A DNA stretch of 8,140 nucleotides, taken from assembly GCA_030630935.1 (NCBI GenBank), contig DAOVMD010000122.1, forward strand, positions 1 to 8,140, read 5' to 3'. Both the position numbers and the translations under genes were made by a program. This stretch comes from Candidatus Mcinerneyibacteriota bacterium (GTDB lineage Bacteria; AUK180; JAQVHJ01). A model generated the notes under the pieces. It made no database searches. It saw only the letters and a list, made by a program, of their open reading frames with translations, and had not been told where the DNA came from. Shown here piece after piece: positions 431-8,016 of this stretch (its first letter is position 1; every line of letters starts with the position of its first letter).

Positions 431-448
431 AAGGAGGAGAAGACTATT
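431..448 (+). promoter_or_regulatory. Ribosome binding site and AUU start codon of infC
   Basis: AAGGAGGAG (431-439) is a near-perfect Shine-Dalgarno sequence. It is followed 8 nt after GGAGG by ATT at 446-448, in frame with IF3. AUU is the known start codon of infC in many bacteria. IF3 itself rejects non-standard start codons, so excess IF3 represses its own synthesis. The conserved N-terminal IF3 sequence (INVNNRIRAKRVLVIGP) begins a few codons downstream, which fixes the start here. Confidence 0.9.
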
Positions 449-1069
449 AAAGGAAGATTACAGATTAATGTAAACAACAGAATTAGAGCGAAACGGGTTC
501 TTGTAATAGGACCAGCAGGCAAGCAATACGGAGAGAAATCCATTTCAGAGGCATTAGAAATTGCTGATGAAATTGGTTTGGATTTGGTTGAGGTATCCCC
601 TAATGCCAACCCACCGGTCTGCAAAATCATGGATTTCGGAAAATATAAGTATGACCTTGATAAGAAGCGTCAGAAATCAAAGAAGAAGCAGAAGAAAATT
701 GTTATCAAGGAGATTCAGTTTCGTCCAAAAACAGGCGAGCATGATTATCAGTTTAAGAAGGATCATATTGAGAAATTTCTTAAGAAAGGTTATAGGATAA
801 AGGTTATAGTTTATTTTAGAGGCCGAGAGTTATCAAGGATTGATTTGGGGGAACAGATAATTACCCGTATTACCGAGGAACTTGGTGATTTAGTTGAAGT
901 TATTCAGAGGATGCCATTAGAAGGTCGGCGTCTGGGCGCCTTGGTTGGACCGTCAAAACTATTAATTGAACAAATAGAGAAGGAGTTAAAAGATGAAGAT
1001 AAAAGCAAAAACTCACAAAGGCACAAAAAAGCGAGTAAAGATAAAGGGGAAGAACAAGATAAAGGTTAA
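446..1069 (+). CDS. infC: Translation initiation factor IF-3 (AUU start)
   Basis: IF3 binds the 30S subunit, keeps it apart from 50S and monitors the start codon and initiator tRNA. The product is 207 residues. The N-terminal domain (about 7-75) contains NNRIRAKRV, the helix ISEALEIADEIGLDLVEVSP (33-52) and PPVCKIMDFGKYKYD (56-70). A lysine-rich linker helix covers about 72-86. The C-terminal domain (about 87-180) contains KEIQFRPKTGEHDYQFK, KGYRIKVIVYFRGRE and the end motif LGALVGPSKLLIEQIEKEL. The start is ATT at 446; no ATG, GTG or TTG lies in frame at the right place. The final 25 residues form a highly charged tail (K, D, E, Q) beyond the usual IF3 end, encoded entirely within the overlap with rpmI. 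It is first in infC-rpmI-rplT, under the strong promoter and attenuator. Confidence 0.97.
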   Translation: MKGRLQINVNNRIRAKRVLVIGPAGKQYGEKSISEALEIADEIGLDLVEVSPNANPPVCKIMDFGKYKYDLDKKRQKSKKKQKKIVIKEIQFRPKTGEHDYQFKKDHIEKFLKKGYRIKVIVYFRGRELSRIDLGEQIITRITEELGDLVEVIQRMPLEGRRLGALVGPSKLLIEQIEKELKDEDKSKNSQRHKKASKDKGEEQDKG

Positions 1070-1190
1070 CCATTGTTTTAGTGGTCACAAGAAAACCTCA
1101 AAAACATCAAAGAGGAAACGTCGATTACGAAAATCTAAGATGTTAAATGCGACTCTTGTTAAAGCAGCAAGAAGATTACTACATAAATAA
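993..1190 (+). CDS. rpmI: Large ribosomal subunit protein bL35
   Basis: A 65-residue, very basic protein of the 50S subunit. The N-terminal KAKTHKGTKKRVKIKGKNKIK matches the family signature (KMKTHKGAAKRFK-type), and KRKRRLRKSKMLN (about 41-53) matches the conserved SKRKRRLRK core. It ends with a short helix, VKAARRLLHK. The start ATG at 993 has AAGGAG (980-985) 7 nt upstream, inside infC. The first 77 nt overlap the 3' end of infC in a different frame, so translation is probably coupled to infC. The stop TAA is followed 15 bp later by rplT. Length is normal for bL35. Confidence 0.95.
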   Translation: MKIKAKTHKGTKKRVKIKGKNKIKVNHCFSGHKKTSKTSKRKRRLRKSKMLNATLVKAARRLLHK

Positions 1191-1205
1191 TTAAGGAGAT
1201 TAAAG

Positions 1206-1562
1206 ATGAGAGTAACTTATTCTGTTCAAAGAAGAAAACGGAAAAAGAAAATTATGAAGGCAGCTCGAGGTTTTCGAGGAGCCCGATCAAGAAGTTTTAA
1301 GAATGCAAAAGAAGCAGTCCAACATTCTTTACAATATTCTTTTAGAGATAGAAAGAATAGAAAGCGTGATTTCAGGCGCTTATGGATAGTAAGAATTAAT
1401 GCAGCTGCTAATAATAACGGACTATCTTATAGTAAATTTATATTTGGCTTGAAAAAGGCCAATATGGATATTAATAGGAAGATATTATCTGATTTAGCAG
1501 TAAATAATCCAGAAGCATTCACTAAGCTTGTTGAAGTTGCAAAAGCCAGTATTTCTAATTAA
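1206..1562 (+). CDS. rplT: Large ribosomal subunit protein bL20
   Basis: bL20 binds 23S rRNA early in 50S assembly and in several bacteria represses the infC operon through the leader RNA. The 118-residue product has the basic N-terminal arm RRKRKKKIMKAARGFRGARSR (about 9-29), then the globular part with YSFRDRKNRKRDFRRLWIVRINAA and the NGLSYSKFIFGLKKANMDINRK block, all typical of the family. Length is normal. AAGGAG (1193-1198) sits 7 nt before the ATG. The last codons and the stop lie in the first copy of a 17-bp tandem duplication. It is the likely regulator of the leader at 286-420, by analogy with Bacillus and E. coli. Confidence 0.97.
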   Translation: MRVTYSVQRRKRKKKIMKAARGFRGARSRSFKNAKEAVQHSLQYSFRDRKNRKRDFRRLWIVRINAAANNNGLSYSKFIFGLKKANMDINRKILSDLAVNNPEAFTKLVEVAKASISN

Positions 1563-1579
1563 CCAGTACTTCTAATTAA
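1546..1579 (+). repeat. 17-bp tandem duplication across the rplT stop codon
   Basis: CCAGTATTTCTAATTAA (1546-1562) is followed directly by CCAGTACTTCTAATTAA (1563-1579), with one mismatch (T/C). The first copy encodes the last rplT codons and its TAA stop; the second is intergenic. This looks like a slippage duplication. Because 17 is not a multiple of 3, the second copy is read in another frame if the stop is bypassed. Confidence 0.85.
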
Positions 1580-1585
1580 TTAGAA
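1570..1585. repeat. 16-bp perfect palindrome just upstream of ktrB
   Basis: TTCTAATTAATTAGAA is its own reverse complement and ends 4 nt before the ktrB ATG. It occupies the place where a Shine-Dalgarno sequence would be expected, and none is seen there. It could be an operator or an RNA hairpin affecting ktrB translation. In such AT-rich DNA chance is also possible. It has no T tract and is not a convincing terminator. Confidence 0.6.
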
Positions 1586-1589
1586 TAAT

Positions 1590-2957
1590 ATGCTGAAAAA
1601 ATTATCACCGCCGCAAATTATCGTTCTAAGTTTTATTAGTGCGATTTTTTTAGGTACAATCCTTTTATTTCTACCAATTTCAAAGGCAGGTCCCGGGCAT
1701 CTTGGTTTTTTGGATGCCCTATTCACTGCGACTTCTGCAGTATGTGTAACCGGACTTATTGTTGTAGATACCGGAACTTACTTCAGTCCTTTTGGAAAAA
1801 TTGTACTTTTAATATTGATTCAGCTTGGCGGGTTGGGAATTATGACATTCTCAACATTTTTCTTTGCTGTTATCGGCAAGAAAATTTCAATTAAGGAACA
1901 ATTGCTATTAACAGATGTTTTAGGTGATTCTAAAAAAACATCGTTAATTGACCTTGTTAAGAAGATATTATTGTTAACTTTTATAATTGAATTTATTGGA
2001 GCGTTAGTTCTTTATTTGAAATGGATTCCCAAATATGGATTAATTGGAGCTATTCCAACTGCGATATTCCATTCAGTTTCTGCATTCTGTAATGCCGGTT
2101 TTTCAATTTATTCCAGTAGTTTTGAAGACTATAAAGGCGATGTGGTAATTGTTGGAACAATTGCAATTTTAATTCTTATTGGTGGTTTAGGATTTGTAGT
2201 GGTTAATGAATTATCTAATATTAAGAAAATGTTCAAGGAAAAAAAGCGTTTCTTTATCAAGCTTTCTTTGCAGACTAAATTAGTTTTCACGATGTCGGGA
2301 ATTTTAATTTTATTTCCTGCGATTATTTTCTTTATTTTAGAGGCAAATAATGTACTAAGTGACCTTCCCTGGAAGGAGAAGATAATTGTAACATTATTCC
2401 AGATAATAACTCCGAGAACTGCCGGATTTAATGTAATCCCTATGGGTTCATTAAATAATGCAAGTCTGCTGCTTACTAAATTCCTAATGTTTATCGGAGC
2501 ATCACCCGGGTCAACGGGTGGCGGGATTAAAACAACAACATTCTTTATTTTGATCCTGTTAGTTATAGCAATGTTAAAGGATCGAAAAAATATAGTAATA
2601 TATAACAAAACCATCCCCGGATTTATAACGCAGAGAGTAGTTGTAATTGCTTTCCTTTCTATGATTTGGATTTTACTGGCAACTAATCTCTTATTATTTA
2701 CAGAACAGGGACTCCTTGATAAAATTGCTCTTGAGCAGGGATATTTTGCTTCAATTGTATTTGAGGAAGTCTCAGCGTTTGGAACTGTTGGTTTATCAAC
2801 CGGGATTACTCCTTACCTTTCTAAAACAGGAAAAATTATAGTTAGCATTTCAATGCTGCTCGGGAGGTTAGGACCTCTTACGATGGCATTGGCAATGACG
2901 AGGAAGGAACAAGTCCTCGATATAGGTTTCCCTGAAGAAAAAGTTATGGTAGGATAA
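1590..2957 (+). CDS. ktrB: K+ uptake pore subunit, KtrB/TrkH family
   Basis: A 455-residue integral membrane K+ translocator with the four M1-P-M2 repeats of the Trk/Ktr/HKT superfamily. The four pore loops are TSAVCVTGL (49-56), HSVSAFCNAGFS (161-172), ITPRTAGFN (273-281) and EEVSAFGTVGLSTG (392-405). Each has its selectivity-filter glycine (about G55, G170, G279, G401). The small-residue segment GASPGSTGGGIKTTT (303-317), after the third pore loop, corresponds to the intramembrane gate loop. GRLGPLT (425-431) carries the conserved Arg of the last M2 helix. The length, shorter than E. coli TrkH, and the adjacent RCK gene favour KtrB, although such proteins are often annotated TrkH. No clear Shine-Dalgarno precedes the ATG, and the 27-bp gap from rplT has no obvious promoter, so read-through from the infC operon is likely. 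It ends with tandem stops TAA TAG. Confidence 0.95.
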   Translation: MLKKLSPPQIIVLSFISAIFLGTILLFLPISKAGPGHLGFLDALFTATSAVCVTGLIVVDTGTYFSPFGKIVLLILIQLGGLGIMTFSTFFFAVIGKKISIKEQLLLTDVLGDSKKTSLIDLVKKILLLTFIIEFIGALVLYLKWIPKYGLIGAIPTAIFHSVSAFCNAGFSIYSSSFEDYKGDVVIVGTIAILILIGGLGFVVVNELSNIKKMFKEKKRFFIKLSLQTKLVFTMSGILILFPAIIFFILEANNVLSDLPWKEKIIVTLFQIITPRTAGFNVIPMGSLNNASLLLTKFLMFIGASPGSTGGGIKTTTFFILILLVIAMLKDRKNIVIYNKTIPGFITQRVVVIAFLSMIWILLATNLLLFTEQGLLDKIALEQGYFASIVFEEVSAFGTVGLSTGITPYLSKTGKIIVSISMLLGRLGPLTMALAMTRKEQVLDIGFPEEKVMVG

Positions 2958-2973
2958 TAGGAGGAAATATAAA

Positions 2974-3633
2974 ATGAGAAGTTTTGCAGTAATTGGTCTT
3001 GGTGAATTTGGTTTTTCAATTGCAAAAACCCTATCTGAACTTGGTGCAGAAGTAATTGCTATTGATGAAAGTCCGGAGCGTATTAAACTGATAGATAGCA
3101 TTGTTACAAAAGCAATTACACTCGATGCCACAAATGAGAAGGCGATTAAATCAGTCGGAATTGAAAATGTGGATGTTGCAATAATTGCAATTGGTAAAAA
3201 GTTAGAAGCGAGTATTTTAGTTGCATTAATGTTAAAGGAGATTGGGATTAAAAGGATAGTTGCGAAAGCTATTTCTGAAATCCAGGGTCGACTCCTTGCA
3301 AGAGTAGGGGCGGATGAAGTGGTTTTTCCTGAAGTTGAGAGCGGGGAACGAATTGCAAATTCCCTCGTGTCTTCCAGTATAAACGACTTTATTAAACTTT
3401 CAAGTGAATATGCGGTTGTTGAGATTATTCCACCGACTGAGTTTTACAATAAATCCCTAAGCGAATTATCCTTACGCAGTAAATATAATATAAATGTAAT
3501 TGGAATTCGCCCGGAAGACGATTCCGATAATATTAAGATTCTCCCTCTCGCAGAAGATGTAATTACTGAAGGAGACATGTTAATCGTTATCGGTGCAGTA
3601 AAAGATCTTGATAAATTTAAGAAGAAAAAATAA
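2974..3633 (+). CDS. ktrA: K+ uptake regulatory subunit, KtrA/TrkA type (RCK domain)
   Basis: A 219-residue cytoplasmic protein with one RCK_N (TrkA_N, Rossmann) domain and one RCK_C domain. This is the KtrA arrangement; E. coli TrkA has two RCK modules and is about twice as long. The nucleotide-binding motif GLGEFG (8-13) and the acidic D31 at the end of the second strand are present. The segments IGKKLEASILVALMLKEIG (73-91) and VVFPEVESGERIA (116-128) are typical of KtrA. The acidic residue E120 in the second segment is at a conserved ligand/cation site. The C-terminal domain (about 140-210) has the usual beta-rich RCK_C pattern. KtrA octamers bind ATP/ADP and gate the KtrB pore. AGGAGG (2959-2964), partly formed by the second ktrB stop, sits 9 nt before the ATG. 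No clear terminator follows the gene. Confidence 0.95.
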   Translation: MRSFAVIGLGEFGFSIAKTLSELGAEVIAIDESPERIKLIDSIVTKAITLDATNEKAIKSVGIENVDVAIIAIGKKLEASILVALMLKEIGIKRIVAKAISEIQGRLLARVGADEVVFPEVESGERIANSLVSSSINDFIKLSSEYAVVEIIPPTEFYNKSLSELSLRSKYNINVIGIRPEDDSDNIKILPLAEDVITEGDMLIVIGAVKDLDKFKKKK

Positions 3634-3635
3634 AA

Positions 3636-3662
3636 AATATTCTTGACTTAAATTGGAATATT
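3636..3662. promoter_or_regulatory. Inverted repeat flanking the -35 box, operator candidate
   Basis: AATATTC (3636-3642) and GAATATT (3656-3662) are a perfect 7-bp inverted repeat separated by 13 bp, placed symmetrically around the -35 hexamer. This is a plausible binding site for a dimeric regulator. As RNA it would be a weak AT-rich hairpin with no T tract, so a ktrA terminator is less likely. The regulator is unknown. Confidence 0.45.
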
Positions 3663-3671
3663 ATATATAAT
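3643..3671 (+). promoter_or_regulatory. Sigma70-type promoter of the lipoprotein-HEAT-TPR-CNB operon
   Basis: TTGACT (3643-3648, 5/6 match) and TATAAT (3666-3671, exact) are separated by 17 bp. Transcription should begin near 3678, about 25 nt before the first start codon. This makes the downstream genes a transcription unit separate from ktrBA, although read-through from ktrA remains possible because no terminator is seen. Confidence 0.8.
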
Positions 3672-3701
3672 AACGTTTGTTAGTTAAAAAGAGGTTTTAA
3701 G

Positions 3702-4109
3702 ATGAGAAGATATCTTTTTCTAGGAGCTTTCTTAATTTTAGTTTCTTTTTTCAGTATATCCTGTATGAAAGCTAAACTTGATTGGTCTTCCCCTGAAGGC
3801 GTTGTTAATACATTTGCAAATGCTGCAAAGCACGGCAACTATGAAACATTGGTTAAGACCACTTCAGGTGAATTAAGGAAGGAACTTGATGCATTAGGGA
3901 ATCAGGACTTAGAAAAGAGATTTAAGAATATGGAGAATGCTTACGTTACATTTTCTAAAAAAGTAATGGACATGGAGGTAGATAATTATTATACCATCAC
4001 AGCGAAAATCACAAAAGAAAATGGGAATATCGAATTCTTAATATTTCATGTAAAATTAGAAGAAGATAAATGGTTAATTTTTAAAATAATTGGGGGAAAA
4101 AATGAGTAA
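3702..4109 (+). CDS. Small predicted lipoprotein, NTF2-like/DUF4878-type fold
   Basis: A 135-residue protein with a lipoprotein signal peptide: MRRYLFLGAFLILVSFFSIS, then Cys21 as the predicted lipidation site. The mature part opens with SPEGVVNTFANAAKHGNYE, the pattern seen at the start of NTF2-like DUF4878 lipoproteins (a helix pair with a small cone-shaped beta sheet). It ends with beta strands (YYTITAKITKE, IEFLIFHVKLEEDKWLIFKI). The call is by resemblance and the molecular role is unknown. NTF2-like folds often bind small ligands or partner proteins, so a periplasmic accessory role is possible. GAGG (3691-3694) precedes the ATG by 7 nt. It is first in a tightly packed operon and overlaps the HEAT-repeat gene by 8 nt. 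Confidence 0.75.
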   Translation: MRRYLFLGAFLILVSFFSISCMKAKLDWSSPEGVVNTFANAAKHGNYETLVKTTSGELRKELDALGNQDLEKRFKNMENAYVTFSKKVMDMEVDNYYTITAKITKENGNIEFLIFHVKLEEDKWLIFKIIGGKNE

Positions 4110-5526
4110 GAGATTTGTTTCCTATTTAACTGTATTGTTAGTTGTATTTTATTTTTTAGGATGTACTCCTGAAGATTCAATTGATCTATTATTAATTGAT
4201 TTGCAATCACCGCCTGAAGAGATTACAAGAAAGATCCTTGCAATCGAGAAACTTAAAACACTTAAGGACCCAGAAGCAATTCCTTATTTAATTCCTGTTT
4301 TATCAGATAATAATCCTCAGGTCAGGATGAATGCTGCGGATTGTCTGGTAATATACGGTAAAGAGCTTCCGGCCGAGACAATTCCTCAGTTGAAGGAGAA
4401 TTTGGCTAGTAATTCAGATAGAATTCGAACTGAGATAATGGATATATTATCTAAAATTGGTCGGCCTGCAATACCTGCTTTGCGAAGGGCACTTCAGTCA
4501 AATAATTCATTTATAAAATTATCTGCAATTAGAATTCTTGGTGAAATAGGGGATAAAAAGGTCATTTACGATTTGATCCAAACTCTGGAAAATACAAAAA
4601 GTGAAGAAGTTCAGGTTTTATGTGCAATTTCCCTCGCGAAACTTAAATCACCTGCTGCAATTGAATCATTACAGAGATTATTGAATACCAGTAAATCTTT
4701 TGATGTCAAGGTTTCAGCCATTCGTGCAATTGGAGAATTGCAATCAAAGGACTCTGCAATTTTACTAGTTAAATTACTTGAGGATAAGAAAGAGAAACCA
4801 GGGCTCAAGGTTGAAGCAATTAAAGCTCTCGAAAGTATGGATATCAAAACACCTGAATTGAAGAAAAGTTTAATTAAATTAGTCTCGTCCAATAACAATA
4901 AATTGAGAATGGAATCCATTTATTATCTTTTTAAACTTGGAGATTCAAGGGGAATGAAATTCCTTAGAGAGGATGTTGATGAGAAATATCCCGGGCAAGC
5001 ACAAATGGCAATAATTGTTTTAGGTAGGACAGGTGATACTTCAAAGAATACTATCGCCGTATTAAAAAAGGCAACAAAATTTTCAAATGAAACTCTTACA
5101 ATCCTTGCTGCGAAATCATTGGTTCAATGCGGGAATGATAATGGGCGAAAGATTTTAATTGAATGCTTAAGGTCCTGTAAGGACATGGGAAATAAATTGA
5201 TTTCAATTGACTATATTGCTGAGCTTAAAATAAAAGAAGCTTCTCCAATTTTAATTGAACTCTTTAGAGGGTCAAAAGATTTTGGAATGATTAATTCTTT
5301 ATTGAAAGCATTTAAAGTTTTACAGATCAACGATTCAATTCCTGAGTTGAAGACGAAGTATTTAGAACTTGCATCTCAACCTGAATTAAAGATTGTAATT
5401 ATGGAATTACTGGTTAATTTTCATACCCCGGAAGCAAAGACAGTATTATCAGAACTATATACATATGAAGAGGATAAGGATAGATATTTTCGTTATGAAC
5501 TGAATAAAATAATAAAAGGTTGGTAG
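4102..5526 (+). CDS. HEAT-repeat lipoprotein
   Basis: A 474-residue protein made almost wholly of HEAT/PBS-lyase-like repeats behind a lipoprotein signal peptide. Residues 5-20 are hydrophobic, ending FYFLG before Cys21, the predicted lipidated residue. The repeats run from about residue 40 to the end, with a period near 31-37. Clear examples are PEAIPYLIPVLSDNNPQVRM (57-76), the helix pairs containing AIPALRRALQSNNSFIKLSA, and those containing AAIESLQRLLNTSKSFDVKV. I judge about ten to twelve repeats. Such solenoids bind other proteins, and the location would be periplasmic and membrane-anchored. ATG at 4102 is chosen over the in-frame TTG at 4090 because GGGGGA (4092-4097) lies just upstream. 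The start overlaps the previous stop by 8 nt. No catalytic motif is visible. Confidence 0.85.
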   Translation: MSKRFVSYLTVLLVVFYFLGCTPEDSIDLLLIDLQSPPEEITRKILAIEKLKTLKDPEAIPYLIPVLSDNNPQVRMNAADCLVIYGKELPAETIPQLKENLASNSDRIRTEIMDILSKIGRPAIPALRRALQSNNSFIKLSAIRILGEIGDKKVIYDLIQTLENTKSEEVQVLCAISLAKLKSPAAIESLQRLLNTSKSFDVKVSAIRAIGELQSKDSAILLVKLLEDKKEKPGLKVEAIKALESMDIKTPELKKSLIKLVSSNNNKLRMESIYYLFKLGDSRGMKFLREDVDEKYPGQAQMAIIVLGRTGDTSKNTIAVLKKATKFSNETLTILAAKSLVQCGNDNGRKILIECLRSCKDMGNKLISIDYIAELKIKEASPILIELFRGSKDFGMINSLLKAFKVLQINDSIPELKTKYLELASQPELKIVIMELLVNFHTPEAKTVLSELYTYEEDKDRYFRYELNKIIKGW

Positions 5527-5528
5527 GA

Positions 5529-6881
5529 ATGGGATTATTTTCATCTAAGGAAGAAAAGTTTCAAAAAGCATTTAATGAAGGTATGGATTTTTATCATCAA
5601 AAAGAATATGGTGAATCGATTCAGGAATTTAAAAAAGCATTAGATTACAAAGATGATTCAGTTGAATGCTTATACTTTTTAGGCTCTTCATATTTTAGAA
5701 GGGATGATAAAGAAAATGCACTTTTAATACTTAGAAAAGCTTTGAAGCTTGAACCTCAATACAGTGAGTTTTTTGAGAAAGAAGGTATGGAATATTATGA
5801 TAATGGCGATTATGAAGAAGCAAAACTTGTGTTTGAGGAAGGCTTATTGGTAACCCAGAATGAAAGTCTCATAGCCGCTTATGCTAATATCCTTTCCGTA
5901 GTTGGTGAATTGGAGGAAGCGATTAAAATCTTGACTAAGTTACTAAAAACAGCAAAAGATAAAAAATCGATTTACCTGGATTTAGCATTCTGTTATACCG
6001 AACTTGCCGATAAGACTAAAGCATTGCAGTATTTCTCAAAAGCACATAAGCTCGACCCTGAGAATACAAATATTTTGAATAATATCGGTCTCTTATATGC
6101 GAGGAATGATCAATATGACGAAGCTATAAAAATATTTAATAAGGCAGTTGAACTTGATCCGGATGATGCCTTAATTCATCATAACATAGGGAATATTTAT
6201 TTCTCAATAGGAAAATTTACGGATGCAGAGAGAGAATACTCCAAAGCAATCGAGATTGACCCGTCATTTGAAGGTGAAACAAATCTTAAAGGGATTGAGG
6301 ATTTTAATACAGGGAAATATTCGGATGAAGAAGAAGAGTTAATCAAATTAACTCAAACTAGTGAGAATAAAGCTGAACAATTTAATAGTCTTGGTTTATT
6401 CTATTTCAATAAAGGTAAGGTAGATATGTCAATAGAGTCTTTTAAAAAAGCTCTTGGAATTGTTTCTGATTATGCTGTATGTTATTCAAATCTGGGTTAT
6501 GCTTACGCTGAACAAGGTCTTTATTTTAAAGCTCTGCAAGCACTTAAAGACGCAATTAAAATTTTACCTGAAAGTGCTTATCTCCATAATAAACTTGCAA
6601 TATTCTATGAGAAACAAGGGAAATTTGAAGAAGCAGATAAGGAATTTGAATCATCTGCAAAATTTGATCCGCATTATGGGAATACTTTCTATTTAACCGG
6701 CTTACTTTGGGAATCAAGAGGCTTTATAAAACAAGCCCAGAGATTCTTCGATAAATTTATTAGATTTGGTATTGATCAAAATATGAAGGCTATTGCAGAA
6801 CAGAAATTGGCAAATATTAATATTTTACTTAAACAAAAAAGAGCAAAACAACCTGAAAAAATTGAAGAAGGAGATGAATAA
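5529..6881 (+). CDS. Large TPR-repeat protein, cytoplasmic
   Basis: A 450-residue protein composed of about twelve tetratricopeptide repeats of 34 residues, with no signal peptide or membrane segment. Strong copies include NILNNIGLLYARNDQYDEAI and ALIHHNIGNIYFSIGKFTDA, each ending in an A-x-E/K-L/I-D-P-type turn. One middle repeat (around GIEDFNTGKYSDEEEELIKL) is degenerate and very acidic. It probably marks a break between two TPR blocks. The C-terminus is a charged tail. TPR solenoids are protein-docking scaffolds, and the partner could be one of the co-encoded proteins. ATG at 5529 is preferred over TTG at 5520; AAAGG (5515-5519) lies 9 nt before it. It starts 2 nt after the HEAT gene stop and overlaps the next gene by 1 nt (TAATG). 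No enzymatic domain is seen. Confidence 0.85.
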   Translation: MGLFSSKEEKFQKAFNEGMDFYHQKEYGESIQEFKKALDYKDDSVECLYFLGSSYFRRDDKENALLILRKALKLEPQYSEFFEKEGMEYYDNGDYEEAKLVFEEGLLVTQNESLIAAYANILSVVGELEEAIKILTKLLKTAKDKKSIYLDLAFCYTELADKTKALQYFSKAHKLDPENTNILNNIGLLYARNDQYDEAIKIFNKAVELDPDDALIHHNIGNIYFSIGKFTDAEREYSKAIEIDPSFEGETNLKGIEDFNTGKYSDEEEELIKLTQTSENKAEQFNSLGLFYFNKGKVDMSIESFKKALGIVSDYAVCYSNLGYAYAEQGLYFKALQALKDAIKILPESAYLHNKLAIFYEKQGKFEEADKEFESSAKFDPHYGNTFYLTGLLWESRGFIKQAQRFFDKFIRFGIDQNMKAIAEQKLANINILLKQKRAKQPEKIEEGDE

Positions 6882-7336
6882 TGGGATATACTGAATTTCT
6901 TAAAAGCAATAAATTCTTTAAAAACCTTAATGATGAAGACCTCGCCTCATTAGAGAAATTCGCTGAACTAAAAAAGTTTCAAAAAAACGAAATGATATTT
7001 TCCGAAGAAGAAGCAGGGGATGAATTGTTCATTATTAAATCCGGAACCGTAAAAGTCTTACGCCAAATAAAAAATGAAGAGCAGACAATTGTAATATTAA
7101 ATCCTGGAGAGTTTTTTGGAGAGATGGCCCTCTTCGATAAATATCCCCGATCCGCATCCGTGAAAATGATGGATGATGGAGAGTTGGTAGTTTTAGAAAA
7201 ATCTGATTTTGAAGAGATGAAAACTAAGGTTCCTTCACTTGTCATTAAGTTAATGGAGATTGTGATTACAACTCTTTCAGATAGGTTAAGGCAGGCAAAT
7301 AGAAACTTTGAGGTAATTTCATTCTGGTTAACATAA
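6881..7336 (+). CDS. Stand-alone cyclic-nucleotide-binding domain protein (CRP-like, no HTH)
   Basis: A 151-residue protein consisting of one cNMP-binding domain. The N-terminal helices include the typical opening FLKSNKFFKNLNDEDLASLEKF. The beta-roll carries GDELFIIKSGTVKVL (46-60) and the phosphate-binding cassette FGEMALFDKYPRSASV (79-94). Both ligand-contacting positions of cAMP/cGMP-type cassettes are present: E81, for the ribose hydroxyl, and R90, for the cyclic phosphate. The C-terminal helix ends at LSDRLRQANRNFEVISFWLT, and there is no room for the winged helix that CRP/FNR regulators carry. It is therefore more likely a ligand-controlled partner or switch than a transcription factor. 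AAGGAG (6868-6873) sits 7 nt before the ATG, which overlaps the TPR stop (TAATG). The ligand is inferred. Confidence 0.88.
   Translation: MGYTEFLKSNKFFKNLNDEDLASLEKFAELKKFQKNEMIFSEEEAGDELFIIKSGTVKVLRQIKNEEQTIVILNPGEFFGEMALFDKYPRSASVKMMDDGELVVLEKSDFEEMKTKVPSLVIKLMEIVITTLSDRLRQANRNFEVISFWLT
7310..7323 (+). promoter_or_regulatory. Proposed ribosome binding site with AUU start for the last operon gene
   Basis: GAGG (7310-7313), then 7 nt, then ATT (7321-7323), in frame with the downstream secreted protein. It lies in the 3' end of the cNMP-binding gene, so coupling is likely. CTG at 7324 is an alternative. The TTG at 7432 has no Shine-Dalgarno and would cut off the signal peptide. Confidence 0.5.
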
Positions 7337-8016
7337 AATACTCCAGATCATTTTTAAAATATTTCGTACTTGTTTTTATAATTATTATCCCTACTATTGC
7401 TCAAGTTTATTCAACTAATATCCCTAAGTTTTTGTCAAAAAATGATATTTCATTTGGTTTATATTTTGGGAATGTGTACAATTATCAGTTCGGGTATGAT
7501 ATTATTAATGCTGAAGCTAATAACCTGAATGATAGTAGGATGCAAGTCAGAGGCTTATTTATTTCTAAACCAGTCTCAAAAATAATCGAAATGCGCCTTT
7601 CATATACAAATTTCAGCTGCTCTGGAATCCCGATAATTATTAAAGACAGAAGAAGTTATGCGTTTGATTTTCTTGTGAATAGTTTCTCTTTCGATCTGAA
7701 ATTTTTATTATTAAATAAATTTGGATTAAAAGTTGGATTGATTTCTAATCTTACAATGAACTATCAATTTTATCATGTTTATGAATTCTCTTACCCAAAT
7801 ATAAAAGAACTAAAAATTCGAGATGAATTTTATTTCGGGACCTCTCCAGGTATATCAATCGGGGTCCATTACCCGGATTCCGGCTTCGGGATTTACCTCG
7901 AAGTAAATAGGGAATATATAATTGAGAATAATAAATTTAAACATTACGGTAATATCTTGAAACTTATGTTCCAAATCTCATTTAAGAATGTTTTTAGGAA
8001 GGATTATTCTAAATGA
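7321..8016 (+). CDS. Predicted secreted beta-barrel (outer-membrane-like) protein, probable AUU start
   Basis: About 231 residues, not assigned to a named family. The frame is open from 7312, just after a stop at 7309-7311, and encodes a clear signal peptide: a basic start (NIKYSRSFLK), a hydrophobic core (YFVLVFIIIIPTIA), and likely cleavage near TIA|Q or VYS|T. The mature part alternates polar and hydrophobic residues in many strand-like stretches (ISFGLYFGNVYNYQF, GISIGVHY, GFGIYLEVNREYII, ILKLMFQISF), rich in Tyr and Phe. This suggests a small outer-membrane barrel. No ATG, GTG or TTG lies between the upstream stop and TTG at 7432, so I propose ATT at 7321 (or CTG at 7324) as the start. 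An indel in the sequence is an alternative explanation. It overlaps the cNMP-binding gene by 16 nt and ends the operon; no terminator is visible after it. Confidence 0.65.
   Translation: MLVNIKYSRSFLKYFVLVFIIIIPTIAQVYSTNIPKFLSKNDISFGLYFGNVYNYQFGYDIINAEANNLNDSRMQVRGLFISKPVSKIIEMRLSYTNFSCSGIPIIIKDRRSYAFDFLVNSFSFDLKFLLLNKFGLKVGLISNLTMNYQFYHVYEFSYPNIKELKIRDEFYFGTSPGISIGVHYPDSGFGIYLEVNREYIIENNKFKHYGNILKLMFQISFKNVFRKDYSK

Follow-up and report, generated by a model that had tools for sequence, protein, structure and literature searches.

In the window, the 8,140-nt stretch of DNA analyzed here, we find a gene on the forward strand that appears to lack any canonical start codon and yet to encode an exported protein. 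The reading frame upstream of its first canonical codon, TTG 7432, is most likely translated both in the window and in a relative from another genus, with a canonical start in neither genome. Comparison of the two supports a non-canonical start that precedes TTG 7432 and is shared by the second genus. From the arrangement of signals, translation likely begins at AUU 7321, directed by a Shine-Dalgarno (SD) sequence, and almost certainly either there or at the adjoining CUG.

An open reading frame without a canonical start

Frame +1 is bounded by TGA (7309 to 7311) and TAA (8014 to 8016) and is open from position 7312. A sequence-only reading of this DNA had claimed that the extension upstream of TTG 7432 contains no ATG, GTG, or TTG, and a scan of the frame from 7312 to that codon found none. 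The same reading had described TTG 7432 (7432 to 7434) as lacking an SD; we found no GAGG- or GGAG-type motif there, merely TAAG 3 nt upstream. Its further claim of a GAGG 7 nt from ATT 7321 (7321 to 7323) is exact: the GAGG occupies 7310 to 7313 and forms part of a GAGGT (7310 to 7314) within the end of the upstream gene (6881 to 7336). The in-frame CTG that adjoins the ATT (7324 to 7326) is a second candidate start, 10 nt from the GAGG, and ATA 7333 is a third. The full junction reads TTTGAGGTAATTTCATTCTGGTTAACATAAAATAC. The open frame shares its initial 25 nt with the end of the upstream gene; counted from ATT, the overlap with the new gene is 16 nt. Starting there, the gene would extend from 7321 to 8016 and comprise 231 codons plus the stop.

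From ATT 7321 to TTG 7432, the frame contains 37 codons, which read ILVNIKYSRSFLKYFVLVFIIIIPTIAQVYSTNIPKF. The sequence-only reading had put the skipped codons at about 37 and considered them to spell a signal peptide, which agrees with both our count and the presence of a hydrophobic core in the relative as well. The predicted signal peptide, ILVNIKYSRSFLKYFVLVFIIIIPTIAQVYS (7321 to 7413), begins with a short, basic n-region, continues into a strongly hydrophobic core, and ends at a plausible cleavage site (VYS/T), where cleavage was proposed after VYS by eye using the -3/-1 rule.

The stretch upstream of TTG 7432 is 45% T and 6% G. In Markov simulations, a frame of this kind stayed open by chance in 8 to 12% of cases for the window and 14 to 20% for the relative, while a frame both open and at least equally hydrophobic arose with P of ~0.0024 and 0.005, respectively. 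An open hydrophobic frame alone is unremarkable in such a T-rich stretch, and the comparative argument is stronger.

The start region is conserved in a second genus

Searches of two genome collections identified a sole relative (locus L004, G001:C291), carried on contig JAQVHJ010000187.1 of MAG STE_202, which belongs to the same family but a different genus. A search of 84,980 GTDB species genomes returned this relative as its single match, and no others were found in 96 additional genomes, in a class- and phylum-level profile search, or in viral contigs. The gene was likewise not found in five sister-family genomes in which the upstream gene is present. The comparison is one between two fragmented MAGs (80% and 72% complete), and the contig of the relative has a coverage of 2.9.

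Window and relative have identical gene order, and their proteins share 42% identity. The junction of the relative is TTCGAGGTGATTTCATTCTGGTTAACTTAAAAATC, and its start region, GAGGTGATTTC-ATT-CTG-GTT-AAC, matches the arrangement in the window. Its SD, GAGGTGAT, is better than the GAGGT of the window, with the spacing kept. Both the ATT and the adjoining CTG are present in the two genomes, whereas ATA 7333 corresponds to TTA and TTG 7432 aligns with GTT. The earliest in-frame ATG, GTG, or TTG in the relative is TTG 4452, 85 codons past the ATT and deep in the conserved domain. Aligned across the upstream region, the relative is thus likewise without a canonical start, and it retains the signal peptide. 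The sequence-only reading had named as contrary findings a relative in which a missing base restores an ATG or one without the signal peptide, and the sole relative is neither.

The signal peptide of the relative, ILVNLKIRFILFYFICIFFLSLPTAINA, has a hydrophobic core like that of the window and aligns to it with gaps one and two whole codons long, INA lying opposite the VYS cleavage site. From the upstream stop to the mature domain, the frame is continuous in both genomes, interrupted by codon-sized gaps only. Nucleotide differences in the signal-peptide region fall less often at second codon positions (9) than at first (18) or third (18), and the pS/pN values for the signal peptide (0.83/0.44) accompany values of 0.72/0.39 for the rest of the gene. 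At the level of sequence, then, the two genera share the lack of a canonical start while the frame, signal peptide, SD, and spacing are all conserved.

Choice of start codon and alternative explanations

Of the near-cognate codons at a usable distance from the SD, ATT 7321 and CTG 7324 alone are retained in both genomes. The spacing is 7 for this ATT, 8 for the ATT of infC, and 10 for the CTG. Among the SD-bearing AUG genes of this genome, 57 of 71 start 4 to 8 nt after the GGAGG core (mode, 5 to 6), as do 31 of 36 AUG genes in the relative, measured from the SD core. Initiation at CUG 7324 would leave the SD unchanged and shorten the protein by one residue. This codon is kept in both genomes, and its spacing of 10 occurs in 8 of the 71 genes; however, that spacing is rarer than 4 to 8 in this genome and is seen in 1 of 36 genes in the relative, and infC on the same contig starts with ATT rather than CTG. 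Moreover, the T and G of the CTG are part of a TGG codon that is fixed in the upstream gene, which makes the conservation of these two bases uninformative. We consider a CUG start unlikely. Conservation does not decide between ATT and CTG, because the same bases double as codons for the C terminus of the upstream protein (EVISFWLT); synonymous conservation over the ATT-CTG overlap is marginal (5 of 7 identical codons versus 51 of 111 elsewhere; P = 0.06). AUA 7333 would overlap the upstream stop as AUAA, a geometry like that of the common AUGA junction, but with TTA in its place in the relative and a distance of 19 nt past the GAGG, it is a highly improbable start. Although the SD of the window itself has only 5 bases, which counts against it, AUU 7321 is the best candidate, judging by spacing and by its likeness to infC on the same contig. 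Of the AUU start suggested by the sequence-only reading, the part that holds up is a non-canonical upstream start, conserved in the second genus; as to the codon, the adjacent CUG is kept alongside the AUU.

Readings that dispense with a near-cognate start fare worse. TTG 7432 is the call expected of a gene finder, and if it were the true start, the codons upstream would be untranslated or a relic. Yet it has no SD, and the relative has GTT in its place and lacks a canonical start until 85 codons past the ATT, so that we rejected it as very unlikely. The upstream frame, which is kept with gaps of whole codons only and a pN lower than pS, speaks against such a start as well, and the signal peptide would be stripped from an all-beta, exported-looking protein. 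An assembly or sequencing error that hides an ordinary ATG could be suspected, given that both assemblies are fragmented MAGs and the contig of the relative has a coverage of 2.9. We give this a very slim chance: the absence recurs at the same position in assemblies from two genera, which rules out a private sequencing error of one of them, and in both the overlapping upstream gene reads without interruption across these bases. Nor does any frame contain an ATG from 7260 to 7432, so a missing or extra base could not by itself restore one, and an indel masking an ATG was rejected. Finally, the two frames share 25 nt before the upstream stop, where a -1 frameshift could in principle fuse the protein to the upstream cNMP-binding protein with no separate start. 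By inspection, though, the overlap contains no X XXY YYZ slippery heptamer; the fusion would bury the signal peptide inside a cytosolic protein; and in the sister family the upstream protein has the same end point but is succeeded by other genes. We rejected this extremely improbable reading for want of a slippery site.

Rarity of near-cognate starts and the infC gene

To place the proposed start at AUU 7321 in the context of its genome, we sampled 536 kb, or 17% of the assembly, which held 377 closed ORFs. We tabulated every codon that followed an SD match of 5 or more bases by 5 to 9 nt and preceded the first canonical start by 20 codons or more. Among the 377 closed ORFs, a near-cognate codon was accompanied by a credible coding extension in infC and this gene only. 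Two further frames fit the pattern, one from an ATA in L046 and one from an ACG in L144, and were discarded for lack of a coding signal. A general habit of AUU starts was not seen in the 536 kb, and 2 of 377 is exceptional rather than a habit of the lineage.

The recovery of infC (446 to 1069, forward strand) served as an unplanned positive control. It begins with AAGGAGGAGAAGACT-ATT at 446, the ATT following AAGGAGG, and is the sole other gene organized in this way within the portion of the genome sampled; it lies 6 to 7 kb upstream of the new gene on the same strand. The infC of the relative is not in its assembly. In the five sister-family genomes (L125 to L129), infC apparently begins with a TTG behind a good SD instead of an ATT, so an IF3 circuit should not be assumed class-wide. 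AUU-based IF3 control may be special to the family of this gene, and weak-start autoregulation of IF3 may have arisen or disappeared inside the class. A search of the genome assembly for 16S rRNA gave no match, leaving its 3' end unreadable.

The protein product and the upstream operon

Sequence searches of Pfam, NCBIfam, and PDB with the predicted protein gave no match of value, and it belongs to no family known to us from them. An AlphaFold2 model built from the two sequences (pLDDT 47) has an N-terminal helix followed by strands only, about ten in number, and a Foldseek search with this pLDDT 47 model returned nothing significant. Weak barrel matches to NanC, KdgM, Ail, and CarO in the fold search were given no weight. 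Judging from the look of the signal peptide and the low-confidence model (pLDDT 47), the product is probably exported. It probably consists of a beta-rich domain after the signal peptide and resides in the outer membrane or periplasm; an outer-membrane barrel would fit, as a guess from the model.

The upstream protein (6881 to 7336, forward strand) is a single cNMP-binding domain (PF00027; E = 7e-24) that is conserved class-wide; no DNA-binding domain was found in it. Its C-terminal motif, N-L/F-E-I/V-hydrophobic-S-L/F-W-L, is conserved across the class, and in the five sister-family genomes the gene ends with the same motif before different sequence follows. In both families, this gene and infC lie ~6 kb apart on one strand (446 to 7336 in the window; G002 to G006). 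The cNMP-binding gene is the fourth in a packed run (3702 to 4109, 4102 to 5526, 5529 to 6881, and 6881 to 7336), in which the starts of the second and third genes are taken as ATG codons within listed TTG ORFs. This operon (3702 to 7336) encodes lipoprotein-like (DUF4878, below the cut-off), HEAT-repeat, TPR, and cNMP-binding proteins, with junctions that overlap or touch.

A possible mechanism and a role for IF3

In the mechanism that we propose, the GAGGU(GAU) in the last codons of the upstream gene would place a 30S subunit on the AUU. With the upstream stop just 10 nt further on than the AUU in a packed operon, initiation is probably coupled, as happens where other genes overlap: the operon would bring terminating ribosomes to the site, and reinitiation or coupling would aid the start. 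The RNA of the start region is weakly structured in the window (z, +1.48). The weak codon would keep output well under that of an AUG gene and should confer sensitivity to IF3, as for infC. We infer the coupling, the low output, the IF3 response, and the use of AUU rather than CUG from the arrangement of these signals. In E. coli, extra IF3 lowers both non-canonical initiation and SD-less reinitiation (PMC2268962).

A broader idea is that infC and the exported protein share the AUU codon such that IF3 abundance determines how much of an envelope protein is made, by way of coupled initiation at the operon junction. We put this forward tentatively and regard it as rather doubtful. If true, it would represent a small IF3-controlled group outside the enterobacteria, staphylococci, and streptomycetes, in a family of an uncultivated phylum. 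Either way, the gene allows the question of whether IF3 acts on genes beyond its own to be put to a concrete test.

Comparison with known non-canonical starts

AUU starts outside infC are, to our knowledge, known in just a handful of cases. The sequence-only reading had called such a start rare, which stands, although there are precedents in pcnB of E. coli and cvfC1 of S. aureus. In a survey of 36 genome groups, 61,358 ancestral AUG starts had yielded 1 switch to AUU and 2 to CUG (PMC5622118).

The gene described here is probably a further member of the small known class that includes pcnB, cvfC1, sigR, and infC. A gene of this kind is invisible to gene finders limited to ATG, GTG, and TTG, and its presence in two genera far from model organisms indicates that comparing relatives can reveal others. 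The AUU codon of infC starts the gene in E. coli, where its autoregulation is known. The infC of the window uses the same codon, is likewise SD-directed, and is on the same contig as the new gene, but its SD is longer (AAGGAGG) and it does not overlap an upstream gene in this way. The AUU of E. coli pcnB has been shown experimentally to limit expression (Binns and Masters 2002, as cited in PMC13009471 and PMC9410913); it too lies outside infC, but in an experimentally established case whose product is a poly(A) polymerase, not an exported protein. The starts of S. aureus cvfC1 (AUU) and ccpN (AUA) are conserved between relatives and have long SD motifs, and AUU and AUA starts in that species gave ~10% of AUG output in reporters in poor medium (PMC13009471). 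Conservation between relatives is shared by the present start, and those long motifs are matched by the 8-base SD of our relative. However, cvfC1 heads its operon, whereas the start here overlaps an upstream stop; the product of ccpN is a regulator, whereas the one here looks exported. Streptomyces sigR, which starts with GTC and is repressed by IF3 in experiments (PMC5472188), resembles our gene in having a non-canonical start outside infC that gene finders missed, but it differs in its codon and in that its response to IF3 has been shown by experiment.
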